IMG/VR virus record: IMGVR_UViG_3300031840_000246
Span: 1-30,755 of that record
DNA length: 30,755 nt
Origin: a virus
Direction: 5' to 3' (one strand)
Shown: piece by piece, positions 4,728 through 22,964 of the stretch
Numbering within the stretch: the stretch's first letter is position 1
Layout of the letters: every line of letters starts with the position of its first letter
Position numbers and translations under genes: made by a program
Notes under the pieces: model-generated
Databases searched by the model: none
Told to the model about the DNA's origin: nothing
The model's input: the letters and a program-made list of their open reading frames with translations, nothing else

Positions 4728-5114
4728 TTATACAGTTCCTACAGTTAAAGCACCAGTTCCTTGAAATGTTACTGTTCTTGAAACAATAGCATCCATAGCA
4801 TTGTTGATACTCATACCAGTAATAATACCTGTTCCTGTGTAACTTGCATCTCCTGAAGCATTACCCTCTGGTAATAAAACAAAAGAGATAGAAGCACCAG
4901 CTAACAAAGTTTCTTGCTGTGCATCAGTTTCGTCAAAGTGCATTTCGATTGTTCCCGAGAATGAAGTTCTACCAGCTAAAAATGATTTAGTTGAATCAGT
5001 TAAAGCAGTATCTTCTACAACATCTCCAGTAGTTTCTAAAGTGAAAGAAGTAACTTCTCCCATTTCAGTTCCACCAACTGTTACAACTCCTTCTTTTCCG
5101 TGATGTGTTGCCAT
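4728..5114 (-). CDS. Major tail (tube) protein
   Basis: A 128-residue, beta-rich protein beginning MATHHGKEGVVTVGGTEMGEV, with VTSFTLETTGDVVEDTAL and the conserved-looking SFSGTIEMHFD segment. This is the pattern of short major tail tube proteins that stack as hexamers to make the siphovirus tail. It directly precedes the G/GT chaperones and the tape measure, as in lambda-like tails. The length is at the short end of the family, which commonly has 130-250 residues, so no extra surface domain is expected. The start has an upstream purine-rich AAAAAGGAAAAAAAG and overlaps the end of a small upstream gene. Confidence 0.87.
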   Translation of the reverse strand: MATHHGKEGVVTVGGTEMGEVTSFTLETTGDVVEDTALTDSTKSFLAGRTSFSGTIEMHFDETDAQQETLLAGASISFVLLPEGNASGDASYTGTGIITGMSINNAMDAIVSRTVTFQGTGALTVGTV

Positions 5115-5248
5115 GTCTTTTTTTCCTTTTTAATTTTTGGTTTGATTTCTTGTTGTTGCTTATATCCTAGTCTAAGATAATGTTCAAGATTTGTTTCGTT
5201 AATAATTATCTCTGAATTATTTTTATATAGTTTAATATCTTTAGCCAT
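5081..5248 (-). CDS. Small hypothetical protein upstream of the tail tube gene
   Basis: A 55-residue frame starting MAKDIKLYKNNSEIIINET and ending QHITEKKEL. It fills the gap between the acidic protein and the tail tube gene and overlaps the tube gene by 34 bases. The protein is lysine-rich with a YLRLGYK segment. The upstream Shine-Dalgarno sequence is weak, but the coding fit in the gap, the MAKDIKLYKN start typical of small phage proteins, and no better candidate make it plausible. The function is unknown. Confidence 0.6.
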   Translation of the reverse strand: MAKDIKLYKNNSEIIINETNLEHYLRLGYKQQQEIKPKIKKEKKTWQHITEKKEL

Positions 5249-5259
5249 ATTGTCTTTTA

Positions 5260-5484
5260 CTATTTATCTTCTTCTTCGTCAATAAAGTCTTCATCTTCCT
5301 CATCTTCTTCAAACTCCTCATCATCTAAGTCTTCTTCTTCCCAAGTTTGATTATCTTCTAATGAGTTTTCTTTAATTTCTTCGATTAAGTCTTTTACTTC
5401 TTCACACAATATAGATTCTTTATCGTGCATTTTTTCTATCTGATCTACTTTTTTAAGTATTTTATTTAATAGTTTTTCATTCAT
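5260..5484 (-). CDS. Acidic hypothetical protein
   Basis: A 74-residue protein with a helical N-terminus (LLNKILKKVDQIEKM) and an extremely acidic C-terminal third: from about residue 45 nearly every residue is Asp or Glu. It lies between the tail terminator candidate and the tail tube region. Acidic tails can mimic DNA or act as chaperone tails for basic partners, but nothing here shows which. A Lys-rich upstream region precedes the ATG. Its composition is distinct from neighbours. I do not recognise a family. Confidence 0.68.
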   Translation of the reverse strand: MNEKLLNKILKKVDQIEKMHDKESILCEEVKDLIEEIKENSLEDNQTWEEEDLDDEEFEEDEEDEDFIDEEEDK

Positions 5485-5494
5485 GGTTTAATCC

Positions 5495-5932
5495 TTATGG
5501 TGTTCCAGCTTGATATTCGTACATACACCTAATCGTCATTCTAATACCACCAACAGGAAATAAACTACCCTCGTCAGTTTCTACTTGTATTACTTCCGAA
5601 TCAAGTGCGTTACCATTACGAGTAATATCATTTTCTATTGCAGTTTCAATAGCTGTAATTAATTCATTTCTTTTAGTGTCTATATTGCTTTCTGCACCTT
5701 TTACAAAGCCTAATATAACAAAATCAATAGTACCTGTTCTAGTTCTAGCACCAGAACCTAATTCAGCATCATCTCTATTTTCTTCAGATGTTTGAATAAT
5801 AACTGCTGGATATTGTTGTTCAGATAATTCATCTAAAATAAAAGGTTGTCTTGTTGCCTTTTTAATTGCTGGGCTACTAATAGCTGAAATAGTAGATAAT
5901 AATTCAGATGCTATATTTTCTCTTACACTCAT
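5495..5932 (-). CDS. Tail terminator / minor tail U-like protein
   Basis: A 145-residue alpha/beta protein between the gpG-like virion morphogenesis protein and the tail tube genes. It has an N-terminal helix (VRENIASELLSTI), an FILDELSEQQYPAVIIQ segment, and a repeated strand pattern (GTIDFVILGFVKG, GIRMTIRCMYEY). Alternating helix and strands with 'YPAVII' and 'KRNELITAIETAIEND' resemble the tail terminator fold (lambda U) that caps the tail tube and joins it to the head. The start overlaps the upstream stop by four bases (ATGA). The assignment rests on pattern plus position. Confidence 0.68.
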   Translation of the reverse strand: MSVRENIASELLSTISAISSPAIKKATRQPFILDELSEQQYPAVIIQTSEENRDDAELGSGARTRTGTIDFVILGFVKGAESNIDTKRNELITAIETAIENDITRNGNALDSEVIQVETDEGSLFPVGGIRMTIRCMYEYQAGTP

Positions 5933-14454: not shown

Positions 14455-14821
14455 CTACTTCTTCTGCTTGTGCCTGTATTATAAGTGGTAAAGGCTCATT
14501 AATATTTTCATTAACAGTTCTATCTTTCATTCCTAAATAGTTTTTACTCAACCAAACTTGCATAGCTGTATTATCTTTCTTTATAGCCTTATCCCACATT
14601 TTCTTTCTAAGACTTGCTTTACCTTTTTCTCGGTATTGGTCTACTATTTCGGCATAATTTCTTTTTAAAGTTCTAGCAGATATATTTAATACACTTGCTA
14701 TCTCATAATCAGGACATCCAATAGATGCTAGGTTTTTCAATATTTCTAAATCAATAGTTATTTTAGGTCTACCTAATGCTTTAGATGATTGTTTATTTAT
14801 TTCTGCCTTATTTTTGTCCAT
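14447..14821 (-). CDS. Terminase small subunit-like HTH protein
   Basis: A 124-residue protein. After a basic N-terminus (LGRPKITIDLEILKNLASIG) comes a helix-turn-helix, CPDYEIASVLNISARTLKRNY (in part at about 36-56). A helical C-terminal half follows with the small-terminase-like segment KKDNTAMQVWLSKNYLGMKDR, then a short acidic tail. Small terminases recognise the packaging site and regulate the large subunit. Its place upstream of terL, with small genes between, is compatible. A transcriptional regulator with the same HTH remains possible. Confidence 0.7.
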   Translation of the reverse strand: MDKNKAEINKQSSKALGRPKITIDLEILKNLASIGCPDYEIASVLNISARTLKRNYAEIVDQYREKGKASLRKKMWDKAIKKDNTAMQVWLSKNYLGMKDRTVNENINEPLPLIIQAQAEEVDG

Positions 14822-15956
14822 TTTCTAATTCTGCCTTTTTACCAGTAAATTGTTCCCATCTTTTGACTATAACATCACAATATTTAGGGTCTAGTTCCAT
14901 AATTCTAGCTTTACGATTTAATTTTTCACAAGCTATAAGAGTACTACCTGATCCACCAAATAAGTCTAATATGATATTATCAGCTCTACTACTATTTATA
15001 ATAGCTCTGCTTGATAATTCTACAGGTTTTTGCGTTGGATGTTGATATTTACTATCTTTTTTAATTTTCCATAAATCAGATTCATTTTTAATACTTGCAT
15101 CTATAAAACCATCAAAAAGTATAAACTCATGTTGATGTCTATATCCTTTACCTAAACCAAAAACATTTTTAGCCCATACAATACATGCTTTGGGTTTAAG
15201 TTTTTTTTGTAAAATACCATAAAATGCCCAATTACAACAAATGTAATAAGTATTAATATTTAAAAGTTTTAAATTACCAAGTATTGTGTCAATAAAATTA
15301 TTAAATTCTGATTCCTCTAAATTATCATTTTTAATTACATCAAATTTTCCACTTCTACCATTAAATGCTACATTATAAGGTGGATCGGTAAATATCATAT
15401 CTGGTTTTTGTTTTTCTATTAATTTATCAATATTATCGAGCATTGTACTATCTCCACACATAAGCCTATGATTACCAAGTTTCCAAATATCTCCTAATTT
15501 AGTTATAGGTTCTTCGGGTGCTTCAGGTACTTCATCTTCATCAGTTAAACCCTCTTGTTCCTCAAATAAAAAATCATTTAATTGGTCTTCATCAAATCCT
15601 GTTAAATCTAAATTAAAATCAGCTAATTCAAGTTCTTTTATTTCGGTTTTTAATAAATCAATATCCCATTCAGCTTCTTCATTTGTTCTATTATCAGCTA
15701 TTCTATAAGCATTAATTTGTTCTTGGGTTAGATTGTCAGCAACAGTTATAGGTACTTCTTTTAACCCTAATTTTTTAGATGCTCGGTATCTAGTATGTCC
15801 AACAACAATAATTCTATTAGCATCAACTACGATAGGTTGTCTAAATCCAAATTCTTTAATAGATTTAGCAACTTTATCAATCGCACTATCTTTTAATTTT
15901 CTTGGATTGTTTATATATGGTTGAATACTCTCAATATTCACTATTTCTATTTTCAT
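14808..15956 (-). CDS. ParB-like domain / DNA methyltransferase fusion
   Basis: A 382-residue two-part protein. Residues 1-95 are a ParB/sulfiredoxin-like domain (IQPYINNPRKL, GFRQPIVVD, VVGHTRYRASKKLG). Residues 150-382 are a site-specific DNA methyltransferase: LGDIWKLGNHRLMCGDS (154-170), catalytic DPPY (191-194), HPTQKP (306-311) and the S-adenosylmethionine loop LDLFGGSGST (330-339). DPPY before the cofactor loop is beta-class order; DPPY usually goes with N6-adenine or N4-cytosine methylation. Such fusions are common in phages and may protect DNA from host restriction or mark packaging or replication sites. No cognate restriction gene is adjacent. The SD AAAGGATAAG precedes the ATG. Confidence 0.92.
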   Translation of the reverse strand: MKIEIVNIESIQPYINNPRKLKDSAIDKVAKSIKEFGFRQPIVVDANRIIVVGHTRYRASKKLGLKEVPITVADNLTQEQINAYRIADNRTNEEAEWDIDLLKTEIKELELADFNLDLTGFDEDQLNDFLFEEQEGLTDEDEVPEAPEEPITKLGDIWKLGNHRLMCGDSTMLDNIDKLIEKQKPDMIFTDPPYNVAFNGRSGKFDVIKNDNLEESEFNNFIDTILGNLKLLNINTYYICCNWAFYGILQKKLKPKACIVWAKNVFGLGKGYRHQHEFILFDGFIDASIKNESDLWKIKKDSKYQHPTQKPVELSSRAIINSSRADNIILDLFGGSGSTLIACEKLNRKARIMELDPKYCDVIVKRWEQFTGKKAELENGQK

Positions 15957-18088: not shown

Positions 18089-18107
18089 TTTTATTTCTCC
18101 CTTTTAA

Positions 18108-18139
18108 GTGCTGGGTCAGGAGAGAATCTGACCCAACAC
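18108..18139 (-). promoter_or_regulatory. Leader hairpin of the leftward block
   Basis: TGGGTCAG and CTGACCCA form a perfect 8-bp stem, extended by a mismatch and GTG/CAC. The minus-strand loop is ATTCTCTC, complementary to the phage Shine-Dalgarno type GAGAGAAT. The hairpin ends about 20 bases before the first ATG. A second smaller hairpin (18169-18187 region) on the same strand has a GCAA tetraloop. Attenuation, anti-termination or protein binding are possible. Confidence 0.65.
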
Positions 18140-18267
18140 GATTAGTATTATGATATGAAAATAAATACTTCGTTCTTTGCAGAACAACTCTCTCTAACAT
18201 TTTTTTATTTATAATCATATCTTTAATTGATTCGTTTTTTATAACTGATTTGTTTTTAAATCAAGAA

Positions 18268-18296: not shown

Positions 18297-18350
18297 AAAA
18301 GCTAGGTTTTATGCGATAAATAAAGTTATTGCATTACAACCTTATTCGTG
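18279..18350. promoter_or_regulatory. Three related operator-like sites
   Basis: ATGCGAATAAATA (18279-18291) and ATGCGATAAATA (18311-18322) start 32 bases apart, about three helical turns. An inverted relative, CACGAATAAG read on the minus strand, lies at 18341-18350. The first and third sit in the spacers of the two candidate promoters. They would be natural binding sites for the helix-turn-helix protein encoded at 19747-20127. Confidence 0.5.
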
Positions 18351-18357
18351 CTTTATT
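18329..18357 (+). promoter_or_regulatory. Candidate rightward promoter
   Basis: TTGCAT (18329-18334) and TTTATT (18352-18357) are separated by 17 bases. The expected start is about 25 bases before the ATG at 18390. The third operator-like sequence lies between the two elements. Prediction by eye. Confidence 0.5.
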
Positions 18358-18389
18358 GTGGTATGTTTAACAAAAAAAAAGGAGAGAAC

Positions 18390-18635
18390 ATGAGTATGGT
18401 AGGAGTAAAACAAAGACTACAAGAAGAATATGATATTTTGACAACTAAGTTTTCAACATACTATTCTAAAATAAATAATAAATATAAAAGATATAATCCT
18501 AATCTTGGTTTTGACCAATTAGGTATTAAAAAAGCTAAAGATAAATTAGATAATGATAGTTCATTACTTTATTCAATTTATTTTTCTTTAAGAACTTTAG
18601 AATATATTAAACCTGATTTAAAGGATAGAGCATAA
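18390..18635 (+). CDS. Hypothetical protein, first gene of the rightward block
   Basis: An 81-residue protein starting MSMVGVKQRLQEEYDILTTK. I choose the ATG at 18390 because AAAAGGAGAGAAC is directly upstream; the earlier in-frame ATG at 18348 would lie between the candidate -35 and -10. The protein is helical and lysine-rich with many Tyr (YYSKINNKYKRY). It ends as TAATG with the next gene. Function unknown; early position. Confidence 0.72.
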   Translation: MSMVGVKQRLQEEYDILTTKFSTYYSKINNKYKRYNPNLGFDQLGIKKAKDKLDNDSSLLYSIYFSLRTLEYIKPDLKDRA

Positions 18636-18841
18636 TGTATAAATCAGTAAAATATATTAGAACAAAAAATAACACATATAAATTGTTAAAAGATTTTAAC
18701 GATAGTGTTGATGTTTATATTATGAAACAAGAATCTAGAAATCAAAATTGTTGGACAGATAAAGATTATATCTACAATTCTACTTTTAGATCAATGAAAA
18801 TTGCTAAAGAAACAATTTATCAAATAGAGGATAACGCATAA
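18635..18841 (+). CDS. Hypothetical early protein
   Basis: A 68-residue basic protein: MYKSVKYIRTKNNTYKLLKD, a central DVYIMKQESRNQNCWTDKD, and a helical end MKIAKETIYQIEDNA. It has no membrane segment and no recognised motif. Start and stop both overlap the neighbours as TAATG, implying coupled translation. Confidence 0.65.
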   Translation: MYKSVKYIRTKNNTYKLLKDFNDSVDVYIMKQESRNQNCWTDKDYIYNSTFRSMKIAKETIYQIEDNA

Positions 18842-18951
18842 TGAAAAAAATAATAGACACATTGGAATATATTTCATTCGGAATTATAATGTTGTATTTT
18901 TTCGCTGGTGGGTTTAAATTAACCATAGATTATTTACTAGGAGTACAATAA
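18841..18951 (+). CDS. 36-residue single-TM peptide
   Basis: A short frame, MKKIIDTLEYISFGIIMLYF then FAGGFKLTIDYLLGVQ, with one hydrophobic helix at about residues 10-23. It fills the gap between two genes exactly: the ATG overlaps the previous stop and the next ATG follows the TAA directly. This fit supports expression. A small inner-membrane peptide of unknown role. Confidence 0.6.
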   Translation: MKKIIDTLEYISFGIIMLYFFAGGFKLTIDYLLGVQ

Positions 18952-19242
18952 ATGAGAATACCAACTAATTCTACTTTCACTAAAGAAATATCAAAACAAT
19001 TTAAAAGAATATTCCATAAGGATATGACTTTAGGTGGATTACAGGATTTACAGGACGAAGTTAATTTAATTAACCCTGTAGATAGTTACTTGGAAAATCA
19101 AGTGACTCAAATAAGGAAAGCTAATGCAACCAAAACAAATGTTCAAGATGCAAGAGCAGTTAGATCGAAAGAAACAGATGGAAAGAAATTTGTTGAGACG
19201 ACTGTTCAAAGTGAAAGAACAAAAGAAAGATTTGGAGTTTAA
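18952..19242 (+). CDS. Hypothetical early protein
   Basis: A 96-residue polar protein starting MRIPTNSTFTKEISKQFKRI, with GGLQDLQDEVNLINPVDSYL and a Lys/Glu/Thr-rich, probably flexible C-terminus. AGGAGTACAATAA precedes the ATG. No family recognised. The last third overlaps another frame (19124-19279) that could also be a gene. Confidence 0.62.
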   Translation: MRIPTNSTFTKEISKQFKRIFHKDMTLGGLQDLQDEVNLINPVDSYLENQVTQIRKANATKTNVQDARAVRSKETDGKKFVETTVQSERTKERFGV

Positions 19243-19279
19243 ACTTCATCATTTGAAGTATCATCAACCAATTCTTTAA
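19124..19279 (+). CDS. Possible out-of-frame nested small gene
   Basis: A 51-residue frame, MQPKQMFKMQEQLDRKKQME and so on, almost entirely helical and rich in Lys, Arg, Gln and Leu. It starts inside the previous gene with AAGGAAAG at a good distance from its ATG and ends 37 bases beyond it, in the gap before the lipoprotein gene. The Shine-Dalgarno sequence and the way it fills the gap favour coding; biased composition from the overlapping frame is the alternative. Confidence 0.4.
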   Translation: MQPKQMFKMQEQLDRKKQMERNLLRRLFKVKEQKKDLEFKLHHLKYHQPIL

Positions 19280-19297
19280 ACGAGAGAGACAGAAGAT

Positions 19298-19576
19298 ATG
19301 AAAAAAACAATACTTACCCTAGCGATCTCTTGCACTCTATTATCTGCGTGTAGTTATAAACCTATAATAGATACTGCTGGAAGATCAGGAACATTCAATG
19401 AAGATAAAGCTAAAGAAATTACAAACGATATTCAACATTGTAAATACTTGGCTAAAGAAAATACTAATTTTATTTCAAACATTACTTATTGGACACTTAG
19501 TCCAACAATGGACACAAAGTATGAGTCTATTATGAGAAAATGTTTAGACAAGCGAGGTCATAGTGTCCTTAACTAA
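19298..19576 (+). CDS. Predicted lipoprotein
   Basis: A 92-residue protein with a bacterial lipoprotein signal: MKKTILTLAISCTLLSAC, lipobox LSAC, lipidated Cys18 and Ser19 after it, which favours outer-membrane sorting. The mature part is polar with a Cys pair (QHCKYLAKE and MRKCLDKRG). Marine phage genomes often have similar small lipoproteins of unknown role. In the early block it could block a receptor or a secondary infection, as known phage lipoproteins do, but this is inference. The end overlaps the next gene by 14 bases. Confidence 0.78.
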   Translation: MKKTILTLAISCTLLSACSYKPIIDTAGRSGTFNEDKAKEITNDIQHCKYLAKENTNFISNITYWTLSPTMDTKYESIMRKCLDKRGHSVLN

Positions 19577-19763
19577 GAAAAAAATTTTAGCATATAAATG
19601 TGCTAGATGCTTTAGAGAAGATTCTTTAAAACTTGCGTGGTTTGTAGGCTCTAATTCAATGTATAGCGATAGCTTACTTTGTAATCCATGCTTTAAAGAT
19701 CAATTTAATAAACTAACAATAACAGAAAAAAAGGAGTGGTCGTTTTATGAGAATAAAGACTAA
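19563..19763 (+). CDS. Small zinc-ribbon protein
   Basis: A 66-residue protein starting at GTG (MSLTKKKILAYK) with GAGG about seven bases upstream. CARC (residues 13-16) and CNPC (40-43) form a Cx2C...Cx2C zinc-ribbon pair, with a hydrophobic aromatic middle (LAWFVGSNSMYSD). Small zinc-ribbon proteins in phages often bind host RNA polymerase or nucleic acid; no specific partner can be named. It overlaps both neighbours. Confidence 0.68.
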   Translation: MSLTKKKILAYKCARCFREDSLKLAWFVGSNSMYSDSLLCNPCFKDQFNKLTITEKKEWSFYENKD

Positions 19764-20127
19764 TACATCAATAGAAGAAATTAACCAAAGTATATCTAAC
19801 CTAATTGCTCAATGGGGAGTTACACCAGAAGATAACGAGATTATCTTTCATAAGATAGTAGGTTTGCAGATTAAAAAAATAAGGTTTATGCGTGGAAAAA
19901 CTTTGACTAGATTAGGTAATGCACTTGGAGTTACATTTCAACAAATTCAAAAATATGAAGCTGGTAAGAACTCAACTCCACATTTTAAACTAAAAAAAAT
20001 CTGCGAATATCTATCGGTATCAATAGACTACTTTACGAAACCAATAGATGATGCTAACTTAGAATTAACTAAAAGGGGGAAATTAAATAATGTCTATCAC
20101 TTTAACAACCGACATGTCGCTAGATAA
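19747..20127 (+). CDS. Cro/CI-family (XRE) helix-turn-helix regulator
   Basis: A 126-residue protein. Residues 38-97 are an XRE-type HTH: GLQIKKIRFMRGKTLTRLGN, then ALGVTFQQIQKYEAGKNSTP, followed by LKKICEYLSVSIDYF. FQQIQKYEAG is the hallmark recognition helix. The N-terminal 35 residues and polar C-terminus are not a protease-cleavable CI tail, so this resembles a short Cro-type or host-type regulator. AAGGAG lies about 11 bases before the ATG. It likely acts on the operator-like sites in the 18.1-18.4 kb control region. With no integrase visible, it need not imply lysogeny. Confidence 0.85.
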   Translation: MRIKTNTSIEEINQSISNLIAQWGVTPEDNEIIFHKIVGLQIKKIRFMRGKTLTRLGNALGVTFQQIQKYEAGKNSTPHFKLKKICEYLSVSIDYFTKPIDDANLELTKRGKLNNVYHFNNRHVAR

Positions 20128-20254
20128 AAGAATAGCTGAAATAGAAAAAGAAGTTAAAAATAATAAATATGCTTATGAGTATTATATTGATGAATATACT
20201 TCATTAATGGAAGCTAAAAATAAAAAGGAGAGAAATGACAATAATAACTACTGA
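20090..20254 (+). CDS. Small helical hypothetical protein
   Basis: A 54-residue frame: MSITLTTDMSLDKRIAEIEK, then a Lys/Tyr-rich helix and an Asn-rich tail (RNDNNNY). A strong AAAAGGGGGAAA lies about eight bases upstream of the ATG. It starts inside the regulator gene's end and overlaps the next gene's start by 20 bases. Function unknown. Confidence 0.66.
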   Translation: MSITLTTDMSLDKRIAEIEKEVKNNKYAYEYYIDEYTSLMEAKNKKERNDNNNY

Positions 20255-21011
20255 ACACGGACACCAAATAGAGTTTAACGAAGAAAAGCATGTCTATATT
20301 CATAACAACGAATATGTAGTTGGTATGAGTACTTTGCTTGGAAAACTTGCTAGTCCACAATTAGAAAATTGGAAAATTAGCAATATGGTAAATGCTATTA
20401 AAAAAGAAATGGAACGACAAGAAATTCCATTAGATAAAATAGAATCTATTGTTTTAAATGCTAAGACCAATGCAAAGAAACAAGGAGATAATATTTTAAA
20501 TATAGGCTCTATGGTTCATAAATATTGTGAGATGTGGCTTAAAGGAGAAAAATTTACTGACCCAAGCGACCCTGTAGTTAAAGGGTGCTTTGATAAGTTT
20601 AAAAAGTTTTGGACAAAGCATAAACTTAAATTGGTAGAGTCCGAAAAAATTTTATATCACGAAAAAGGTGTATGTGGAACTTTAGACATAGTTGCTGAAG
20701 ATGGAGAAAAAAATCTTTGGCTAATTGATATAAAAACAAGCAAAGGAATTTTCTTAAACATGGTACACCAACTTCACGGGTATCGTTGGCTTTTTGAGTG
20801 CCAAACAGGTAAGAAAATAAATAAGATGTATGTAGTCCGACTGCCTAAAGATGGTGCAGATTTCGAGGCTAGACATATCTTATATAAAAAGGAACACTTA
20901 AAAGCATTTCTTGGATTATTAAGTTGTCATAAATCCGAGTTATTGTTCAATGAGTCAGTACGAAAATACAATCAACTAAAAAAAGGAAAAACAAATGTAT
21001 CAAAAAAATAG
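20235..21011 (+). CDS. PD-(D/E)XK nuclease (RecB/Cas4/exonuclease type)
   Basis: A 258-residue protein. Candidate active-site residues: H95 in IGSMVHKYCEMW, D151 in CGTLDIVAED, D165 and K167 in LWLIDIKTSKG, then Q179 and Y183 in HQLHGYRW. This is the RecB/AddB-like motif order (H, D, D-x-K, Q-Y). Such phage nucleases process double-strand ends for recombination or replication. It lacks the four Cys of Cas4-type iron-sulphur members. The adjacent SSB-tail protein overlaps its end, suggesting the two act together in a Red-like end-processing pair. AAAAAGGAGAGAA precedes the ATG. Confidence 0.88.
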   Translation: MTIITTEHGHQIEFNEEKHVYIHNNEYVVGMSTLLGKLASPQLENWKISNMVNAIKKEMERQEIPLDKIESIVLNAKTNAKKQGDNILNIGSMVHKYCEMWLKGEKFTDPSDPVVKGCFDKFKKFWTKHKLKLVESEKILYHEKGVCGTLDIVAEDGEKNLWLIDIKTSKGIFLNMVHQLHGYRWLFECQTGKKINKMYVVRLPKDGADFEARHILYKKEHLKAFLGLLSCHKSELLFNESVRKYNQLKKGKTNVSKK

Positions 21012-21438
21012 TTACGATTTACCATTCTGTGGTTTATCAATGAGATTATATCCAACAGGTAAGCAATCTCCTAAATATGAATATAGTGGAGAAGCCTCTA
21101 AAGTTAAGTTCACTTGTAGCTTAACTAAAAAGAAATATGGTTTATCTCAAATTAGTGAATGGGTAAGAACACCTGAAGTCGCTAAGTACACTAAAGCTGG
21201 TTATGTTTTAAAATATATGACTAAGGTACAAGAAAATAATAATCCGTCTCAATATGCTAAAAGCAATTTAGAACAGATATTTTGTTTGGTCATGGTTAAA
21301 CCATATAAACCTCAAACTGATAATGTAGATGGATTGAAGCCTATTTCTCAATCCATGCCACCTCATGCTACACAGTTTGCACCAGATAATGCAAAGCCTG
21401 TAGAACAATCTGATATGGATGACGAGATACCATTTTAA
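20995..21438 (+). CDS. SSB-tailed protein (possible ssDNA-binding or annealing protein)
   Basis: A 147-residue protein whose last residues are DMDDEIPF, very like the DDDIPF tip that lets bacterial SSB recruit repair and replication proteins. Before it is a typical flexible Pro/Gln-rich linker (residues about 108-138). The N-terminal 105 residues are a beta-rich basic domain (KFTCSLTKKKYGLSQISEWV, KAGYVLKYMTKV) that I cannot match to the OB fold by motif. It is co-encoded with the nuclease, overlapping by 17 bases, so single-strand binding at resected ends is the likeliest role. Confidence 0.72.
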   Translation: MYQKNSYDLPFCGLSMRLYPTGKQSPKYEYSGEASKVKFTCSLTKKKYGLSQISEWVRTPEVAKYTKAGYVLKYMTKVQENNNPSQYAKSNLEQIFCLVMVKPYKPQTDNVDGLKPISQSMPPHATQFAPDNAKPVEQSDMDDEIPF

Positions 21439-21653
21439 TGACTAAATTATCTGACACACAAGAACAACTTATTAGCGATTTCTATAACTTAAAAAAAGAT
21501 TTCGCTATTAAGTTAGAGGAGATACAAGCATTGTATTTAGAATGTAAAAACCACTCCAATACGATTGAAAGATTGGAAAGAGAAAAAAAAGAATTACAGG
21601 CTAAAATCAAGTTGCTTAAAAAAATGGCTAAAGAAAATTTATTACACCCATGA
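21438..21653 (+). CDS. Coiled-coil hypothetical protein
   Basis: A 71-residue protein that is nearly all helix: LSDTQEQLISDFYNLKKDF, then EIQALYLECKNHSNTIERLE and a Lys-rich leucine heptad end. It starts overlapping the SSB-like stop as TAATG and ends overlapping the next gene as ATGA. It may be a partner of the preceding nuclease and SSB-like protein, but nothing specific shows that. Confidence 0.66.
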   Translation: MTKLSDTQEQLISDFYNLKKDFAIKLEEIQALYLECKNHSNTIERLEREKKELQAKIKLLKKMAKENLLHP

Positions 21654-21817
21654 TAATACTTGGAAAACCAATACATAGAAAATACATAAAAAGATTTGCA
21701 ATTATGTTGTTATTATTTATATCTGTATTTTTAATGTCTTGTAGTAAATTAGATTTTGACCCAACAACAACTGCATTAAAATATATTTTTAAGGAGAGTA
21801 AAAATGTTAAGCAATAA
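21650..21817 (+). CDS. Small predicted lipoprotein
   Basis: A 55-residue frame with a basic start (MIILGKPIHRKYIKRF), a hydrophobic core (AIMLLLFISVFLMSC) and a lipobox-type LMSC followed by Ser. The mature part would be only about 25 residues. It overlaps neighbours as ATGA upstream and by 14 bases downstream, and it carries the next gene's AAGGAGAG. It resembles o-spanin-like or exclusion lipopeptides in size, but no paired i-spanin is adjacent. Confidence 0.62.
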   Translation: MIILGKPIHRKYIKRFAIMLLLFISVFLMSCSKLDFDPTTTALKYIFKESKNVKQ

Positions 21818-22127
21818 GTCTTACGAAGAATTAGAAAAAGCATCAAGAGAATGGTCGGAGTGGCATAAGAAAGTAATTATTTTAGAAGATGGTAAAAAAG
21901 CCATGTTCAGTAAATTGTTTCTTAAATATAAATTAGAAACTAAAACAGTTATAGAGGCAGAACATAAAGCTAGAACAGATAATGAATACAGAGAAATCGT
22001 TAAGCAATATGCAAATGCTGAAGAAGAATTAATTAAAGCTAGGTATCATTATAACAATTTAGATAAGTACATAAGTCTAAAACAATCTGAATTGAAAAGA
22101 GATTTAGCTTTGAATAGTAAAGTTTAA
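21804..22127 (+). CDS. Helical hypothetical protein, last gene of the rightward block
   Basis: A 107-residue, mostly alpha-helical protein (SYEELEKASREWSEWHKKVI, AMFSKLFLKYKLETKTVIEA, then LDKYISLKQSELKRDLA). I recall close relatives in marine siphophages next to recombination genes, but no function. A clean AAGGAGAGTAAAA precedes the ATG. The structured segment at 22136-22335 starts nine bases after its stop. Confidence 0.72.
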   Translation: MLSNKSYEELEKASREWSEWHKKVIILEDGKKAMFSKLFLKYKLETKTVIEAEHKARTDNEYREIVKQYANAEEELIKARYHYNNLDKYISLKQSELKRDLALNSKV

Positions 22128-22135
22128 CAAATTCT

Positions 22136-22335
22136 ATAAATATACTAGTGTATTTATGGACAGAGCCATCAGGGAGACTTGGTGGCTTGTTAAAAAGTTT
22201 TTGGGTGTTTCATGTGGGTTTTTATAAATGTTTCCCACTTTGCTCTTTGCACCCAGAAAGTTAGAGTGGTTACTCTCCCCTTACCACTTTAACATTGAAG
22301 CTGGGGTAGGCAATAACTGGTTCTGCTTACCCTAG
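22136..22335 (+). ncRNA. Candidate structured RNA of five hairpins with a loop-loop interaction
   Basis: In the gap between convergent blocks the + strand folds by eye into: H1, a near-palindrome at 22136-22157; H2, 22163-22171 with 22180-22188; H3, outer 22198-22207 with 22250-22259 and inner 22214-22218 with 22234-22238; H4, 22260-22270 with 22283-22293, 11 bp; H5, 22301-22312 with 22324-22335, 12 bp. Loop GGGAGA of H2 (22172-22177) is complementary to TCTCCC in the loop of H4 (22274-22279), a possible kissing interaction. GC over 22161-22340 is 77 of 180, richer than the flanks. No tRNA form is seen. H5 may double as the convergent terminator. Confidence 0.6.
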
Positions 22336-22568
22336 TTTCTAGTAATCTCTAAATCTTTTAAATTAGTTTTTTCTGTGATTGGAGTTTCTGTGTATTCGTA
22401 ATCTACAACTTCTACATCTTCGTGTCGTTCTAATTCATACAAAGCATTTAAAAGTCTTGGTTTGTTAGGTGCAGTATCTACAAATCTAAAACAAACAAAA
22501 TGATTATACTCTTTCCATCTTGATGATATTTCAAATTCTACATCTACAATAATTGCGTCTATATCCAT
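22332..22568 (-). CDS. Hypothetical protein, last gene of the leftward block
   Basis: A 78-residue protein with an alternating beta/alpha pattern: MDIDAIIVDVEFEISSRWKE, FVCFRFVDTAPNKPRLLNAL, YELERHEDVEVVDYEYTETP. This resembles a small ferredoxin-like or regulatory fold, but I recognise no family. Its stop lies inside the 3' arm of the last hairpin of the convergent structured region. Confidence 0.66.
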   Translation of the reverse strand: MDIDAIIVDVEFEISSRWKEYNHFVCFRFVDTAPNKPRLLNALYELERHEDVEVVDYEYTETPITEKTNLKDLEITRN

Positions 22569-22604
22569 TAGACCATATTACTTATTTTGAGAATTTATGA
22601 AATG

Positions 22605-22964
22605 CTATTTTTTGCCAGTAAATTTCTTGACAGTATTTACACCAAAAGAAGCACCGACTATTGTGAGTATTATTATCCAAAAGTAATCACTAGCATATTC
22701 AAGTATTTCCCAGCCTCTAAGCATAGTGTCTTGGAATTGTGGTATAAAATGAAATACAAATATTAAACTAAATACAACAACTAACCATTCATCTTTAAAA
22801 GAGTTTTCTTGTTGTCTTATTTGTTCTACTGATACTGTTTTAACAGCTTCTATTTCTTTGGCTTTAATAATTTTATCTTTTTCTAATTTATGCTGAATTG
22901 CACCAATAGTTTTATTAGCGATTATTTTTGTTAGTGGATTTGATAATAGTTTAAGCCAGATCAT
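22605..22964 (-). CDS. Holin-like protein (GTA 3-TM holin type)
   Basis: A 119-residue protein. The N-terminal half is amphipathic and helical. Two strong transmembrane helices lie at about 60-75 (LVVVFSLIFVFHFIPQF) and 92-110 (YFWIIILTIVGASFGVNTV), with a basic end VKKFTGKK. The order and the FKDEWLVVVFSLIFVF segment recall the 3-TM holins of gene transfer agents, which release virions by permeabilising the inner membrane. It is near other lysis-type genes: an endolysin further along the block, an XhlA-like protein and an upstream membrane peptide. Confidence 0.75.
   Translation of the reverse strand: MIWLKLLSNPLTKIIANKTIGAIQHKLEKDKIIKAKEIEAVKTVSVEQIRQQENSFKDEWLVVVFSLIFVFHFIPQFQDTMLRGWEILEYASDYFWIIILTIVGASFGVNTVKKFTGKK

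Follow-up and report, generated by a model that had tools for sequence, protein, structure and literature searches.

A modular structured RNA at the 3' end of early-side genes in two groups of SAR11 phages

Few viruses on Earth outnumber the phages of SAR11, a group of ocean bacteria. In marine phages and cyanophages, RNAs such as manA, wcaG and PhotoRC-II are thought to regulate adjacent genes, and in phage lambda the nut site places boxA and then boxB at the start of an antiterminated operon, together with an N-type protein. Structured 3' UTRs are described as "highly unusual" in bacteria in a study that lists 104 candidate RNAs, and a phage precedent exists in which a structured 3' UTR regulates upstream genes (PMC2864571). 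The consensus for cleavage by RNase E is RN|WUU (PMC5222698). A full-text search of the open-access literature retrieved no paper on non-coding RNA in SAR11 phages (pelagiphages), and an earlier description is possible. Here, we describe a previously uncatalogued RNA structure that lies at the end of phage early genes and is present in at least two otherwise different groups of SAR11 viruses.

The window, i.e. the whole stretch of 30,755 bases that was analysed, belongs to a tailed phage with portal, terminase, capsid, tape measure and J-like tail fibre genes, and its closest named relatives are the Pelagibacter phages HTVC202P, HTVC111P and HTVC026P. Leftward genes make up most of this genome; one of them (14808-15956, minus strand) is fusion-like and combines a ParB-like nuclease domain with a DNA methyltransferase domain. 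The rightward block of about 3.8 kb (18348-22127) includes an exonuclease. A sequence-only reading had placed the element in a 200-base gap between convergent genes; this setting is correct, and the gap comprises 204 bases (22128-22331), with the 3' arm of the last hairpin overlapping the stop codon of the convergent gene. No PHROGs match was found for the product of the last rightward gene, and no tRNA or tmRNA was found in the window. The features of the locus are as follows.

21804 to 22127, plus strand: 107-aa gene that closes the rightward (early-side) operon, homologous to gp01 of HTVC111P, HTVC202P and HTVC026P
22130 to 22135, plus strand: 5' boundary AAUUCU at the base of H1, a possible RNase E-type site (RN|WUU); AUUCU is invariant in a 28-row alignment, and AAUUCU occurs in both lineages
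22133 to 22160, plus strand: hairpin H1, 12 bp, loop CUAG (palindrome ACUAGU), with covarying stem pairs
22163 to 22188, plus strand: core hairpin H2, 11 bp, GAGA tetraloop at 22174-22177, closing pair G22173-C22178, invariant G-U as second pair
22198 to 22258, plus strand: H3, an optional hairpin module, absent in the L021, L024 and L078 types
22260 to 22293, plus strand: hairpin H4, CU-rich loop UACUCUCCCCUU, CUCUCUC in most relatives, with stem covariation
22300 to 22335, plus strand: H5, an optional 3' hairpin, loop with a AACUGGUU-like motif; HTVC112P has a similar hairpin in the H4 position
22332 to 22568, minus strand: convergent 78-aa gene with which the leftward block ends

RNAfold predicts five hairpins on the plus strand of 22133-22335, with a minimum free energy of -74.2 kcal/mol versus -50.0 +/- 4.7 for shuffled sequences (z -5.15; 0 of 200 shuffles equally stable). 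The minus strand of the same segment folds ordinarily (z -0.75), and a sliding scan of both strands found the lowest free energy of the entire window at this element. Its GC content of 81/200 (40%), against 54/200 and 57/200 (27-28%) in the flanks, is matched or exceeded in 0.85% of 200-nt windows. Both the five hairpins and the GC-rich composition between AT-rich flanks were thus described correctly in the sequence-only reading. Comparable z values, all between -5 and -6, were obtained for HTVC202P (-5.7), HTVC111P (-5.7), HTVC112P (-5.2) and an element of the second phage lineage described below. Inside coding sequence, at 21241-21510, an unusually stable fold is predicted for both strands (z about -4.7).

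A kissing contact between the loops of H2 and H4 had also been proposed. GGGAGA (22172-22177) and TCTCCC (22274-22279) are indeed exact complements, but GGGAGA is not a loop, as it comprises the G-U pair, the closing G-C pair and the GAGA tetraloop, which is of the GNRA type. At this composition, about 4% of shuffles show such a 6-nt match for a single pair of loops, and five hairpins offer many pairs. Moreover, elements that lack H4 (the HTVC026P type and lineage 2) still have GAGA, and the closing pair of H2 flips from G-C to C-G while the H4 loop is still UCUCUC. Covarying loop-loop pairing between H2 and H4 was not found, and a kissing-loop or pseudoknotted RNA of this kind is rejected.

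Relatives were collected by a protein-seeded scan, which fetched 80 loci, and many more were added through DNA patterns. The structure is kept in HTVC111P, HTVC202P, HTVC112P, HTVC026P and well over 100 viral contigs, and H2 has 11 bp and GAGA in every one of these relatives. Among 19 distinct forms of H2, 98.6% of the cells pair and 48 cells are changed on both sides, compared with 14 in shuffles (0 of 500 as high); this compensatory signal is lost once the partner is slid by one base. One alignment, whose L120 and L155 rows were mis-cut, does not enter these counts. Parsimony on trees of the neighbouring gene gives about 35 double compensatory changes in H2 (33 in lineage 1, two in lineage 2) and a single change to a non-pair, and the loop-closing pair flips between G-C and C-G about nine times. 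Covariation is also seen in the stems of H1 and H4. The compensatory changes that had been called for in homologues therefore exceed both shuffled and slid controls, as expected of an RNA with conserved secondary structure, and they bear out the earlier suggestion of a phage non-coding or 3'-UTR RNA that is more than a terminator.

Within H2, G-U pairs fill 107 of 517 cells and A-C none, which shows that selection acts on the plus-strand RNA. The element is thus under strand-specific selection at the RNA level and is not a product of chance. This strand specificity, together with the ordinary fold of the minus strand, makes a DNA-level element, such as an origin, an operator or the packaging or replication site considered before, extremely unlikely. 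The records of HTVC111P, HTVC202P, HTVC112P and HTVC026P do all open beside the element, as such a site could explain, but they start exactly at the stop codon, which looks like an annotator's choice. No match to the element was found in the pelagiphages HTVC010P, EXVC029P and HTVC106P, nor in HTVC023P, 027P, 103P, 104P and 115P, of which the first 50 kb were searched. A host origin of the hairpin was rejected, as the 27 hits in bacterial genomes are scattered over unrelated taxa at chance level and none lies in SAR11.

Comparison of the relatives reveals that H1 and H2 form the conserved core, to which zero to three hairpins are added, so that the five hairpins of the window are a local variant. 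The minimal form, H1 and H2, is represented by the HTVC026P type; H1, H2 and H4 occur in the L021 and L078 types, H1 to H4 in HTVC111P and HTVC202P, and H1 to H5 in the window. In HTVC112P, H2 contains tandem G-A mismatches and is accompanied by H1 and by a hairpin resembling H5. H3, H4 and H5 are thus exchangeable modules. H1 itself is longer in most relatives and carries the loop GCUCC(C), unlike the CUAG of the window.

The exact 22-mer core CCCATCAGSGAGASTTGGTGGG is present in 78 viral contigs, versus an estimated 0.03 or so expected. Many of these contigs end the operon with another gene (DSEVLRIEKRIRGLNRV...), face another convergent gene (phrog_25889 type) and constitute a second lineage, in which the same core reads AAUUCU-H1-AGAUA-H2-G(C/U)UAA and the added modules differ from those of lineage 1. 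In two lineage 2 contigs there are short stretches in common with HTVC010P/EXVC029P or a podovirus-like portal, and the element is common to phages of different virion type. In both lineages it lies directly 3' of the last rightward gene and ahead of the convergent gene. Because the RNA is kept although the neighbouring genes are unrelated, the RNA itself is what is conserved, and its presence in at least two lineages makes a stable RNA with a regulatory or protective role probable. One lineage 2 contig (L269) contains two copies of H2 in one convergent gap (5080-5113 and 5509-5542), each followed by a similar array, reflecting a tandem duplication of the RNA region; near 5240-5268, a 3' module of the same contig, GUCUGAGGUGGGCAGACGUUCAUCCCACC, is likely to form an H-type pseudoknot.

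At the same place in lineage 2, the H1 loops contain differing palindromes, GAGAUCUC, GGUAUACC, GGUACC and GGAUCC, which are swapped in near-identical contexts (L258 vs L285, L250 vs L260). Together with ACUAGU in the window and AGUACU in L007, they are what would be expected if two RNA copies dimerised through H1 in a kissing loop like the DIS of HIV. The mean longest palindrome in lineage 2 is 7.1 versus 5.5 in shuffles; however, the individual palindromes are not significant, and the GCUCC(C) loops of most HTVC111P- and HTVC026P-type elements are non-palindromic (mean 5.85 versus 5.57). The palindromes are suggestive in lineage 2 and absent from most of lineage 1, and homodimerisation as an explanation of the element is very improbable.

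As anticipated, the element belongs to no known class: in Rfam 15, no family exceeded its gathering threshold in the window, none was meaningful at lax thresholds and none was found in the relatives. A promoter-like match immediately upstream of the element was not found either. Intrinsic terminators, i.e. a GC-rich hairpin followed by a U-rich tract, gave 0 sites on either strand of 21700-22700. The homologues keep the H1 and H2 core rather than a last hairpin with a U-tract, and on the plus strand of the relatives no U-run directly follows H2, H4 or H5. A rival reading, somewhat less likely than the regulatory one given below, is that the hairpin array does no more than end the early transcript, by Rho or another non-canonical route, and shield its 3' end, or that it tunes the upstream gene like the lambda sib retroregulator without a partner in trans. 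The invariable position, between the last gene and a convergent one, is consistent with such a role, as are the phage precedent of a structured 3' UTR regulating upstream genes (PMC2864571) and the interchangeable modules, which are expected where only stability matters. What speaks against it, besides the lack of a U-tract on both strands, is that unrelated phages keep the sequences of the GAGA loop, the G-U pair and the AUA linker, beyond the needs of a mere block.

We favour a phage-encoded, 3'-UTR-derived regulatory RNA that is released from the early mRNA by cleavage or stays at its 3' end, and tentatively give this reading a probability of about 45%. For its processing, its role in stability, its partner and its target, we infer the following scheme. 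The RNA would be encoded at the 3' end of the rightward, early-side transcript, with a core in which a short linker, AUA or ACA, joins AAUUCU and H1 to the GAGA-tetraloop hairpin H2, followed here by H3, H4 and H5. Cleavage or trimming at the conserved AAUUCU, which fits the RNase E consensus RN|WUU (PMC5222698), would free it, or it would be retained at the mRNA end, in either case as a stable 3'-UTR RNA whose stacked stems block 3'-5' exonucleases. Its conserved unpaired loops (GAGA, CUCC of H1 in most relatives and the CU repeats of H4) may then bind a partner common to SAR11 cells or base-pair with phage mRNAs, the prime candidate for co-regulation being the leader of the leftward operon, in which a GAGAGAG site accompanies a CU-loop hairpin of the same type.

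18089 to 18205, minus strand: 5' leader of the leftward operon, a conserved RNA that contains GAGAGAG, two hairpins, the Shine-Dalgarno (SD) sequence GGGAGA and, at 18108-18139, a CU-loop hairpin

In this leader, a GAGAGA stretch is followed by two hairpins, by GUGUUGGGU...CUCUCUC...ACCCAGCAC and then by the SD. It is present also in HTVC111P, HTVC202P and HTVC026P. In the window, HTVC111P and HTVC202P, hairpins of at least 8 bp with a CTCTC-type loop occur only twice, as H4 and in the leader, which suggests a shared partner. Starting from this common hairpin and the complementary GAGAGA sites in both RNAs, one could envisage a circuit in which the 3' RNA of the early operon and the 5' leader of the opposite operon act on each other and time early and late expression, a reading that we consider doubtful. 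The contact, direct or via a shared protein, and a spread of the GAGA-hairpin core between unrelated SAR11 phages are parts of this joint reading and are equally speculative. If true, it would represent a new class of phage RNA circuit. Direct pairing of H4 with the leader is a candidate contact; covariation between H4 and the SD of the leader is seen in three genomes but fails in L106 and L120, and loop-SD duplexes of H4 are not more stable than those formed by shuffled loops. Autoregulation by pairing of H4 with the SD of the upstream gene was dismissed, as relatives do not keep the 9-nt complementarity seen in the window.

The shared hairpin type could also mean that H2, with its GNRA-fold loop and conserved G-U pair, and the CU-loop hairpins of H4 and the leader bind host or phage proteins, in which case the 3' RNA may be a decoy that frees the leader. 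The sequence constraint on the H2 loop above a freely covarying lower stem would agree with protein binding, as would the occurrence of CU-loop hairpins at just these two sites per genome and the common SAR11 host of the carrier phages. On the other hand, HTVC026P has the leader without H4, and there the leader fronts the operon that ends in the element; HTVC112P has neither CU-loop hairpin, and lineage 2 has no CU loop at the H4 position. This explanation appears improbable. Under our preferred reading of a regulatory 3'-UTR RNA, the lack of H4 in the HTVC026P type and in lineage 2 implies that the CU loop is not its universal function.

Neither bacteria nor their phages commonly have a modular structured 3' UTR, and cultured phage-host pairs carry this element (HTVC111P on HTCC7211, HTVC026P on HTCC1062), so that its function is directly testable. 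Among known systems, the lambda nut site shares a short stem, a loop of GNRA-type fold and a nearby CU-rich stretch. It differs in its position at the operon start, its pentaloop and its N protein, whereas the element has a tetraloop on an 11-bp stem and follows the last gene, and assignment to nut/boxB was rejected for this position. CsrB/RsmZ-type sponge RNAs also consist of hairpin arrays, with a conserved loop motif common to an mRNA leader; their motif is ANGGA, while the element has GAGA and CUCUCUC in few copies, and any link to CsrA would be putative. The manA, wcaG and PhotoRC-II motifs are likewise structured RNAs of marine phages, but they are represented in Rfam and the element has no match there. 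The lambda sib retroregulator and the L17 downstream element, grouped here as structured bacterial 3' UTRs, are conserved structures directly downstream of a gene, with a sequence and architecture unlike the multi-hairpin array and GAGA core described here, whose neighbouring genes are unrelated between carriers. The 3'-UTR-derived sRNAs released by RNase E differ in that the element is phage-encoded, without a canonical terminator and U-tract and with no Hfq-type tail seen; they resemble it in being structured and in lying at an mRNA 3' end, and both this position and the RN|WUU-like AAUUCU at its conserved 5' border would be compatible with such an sRNA.
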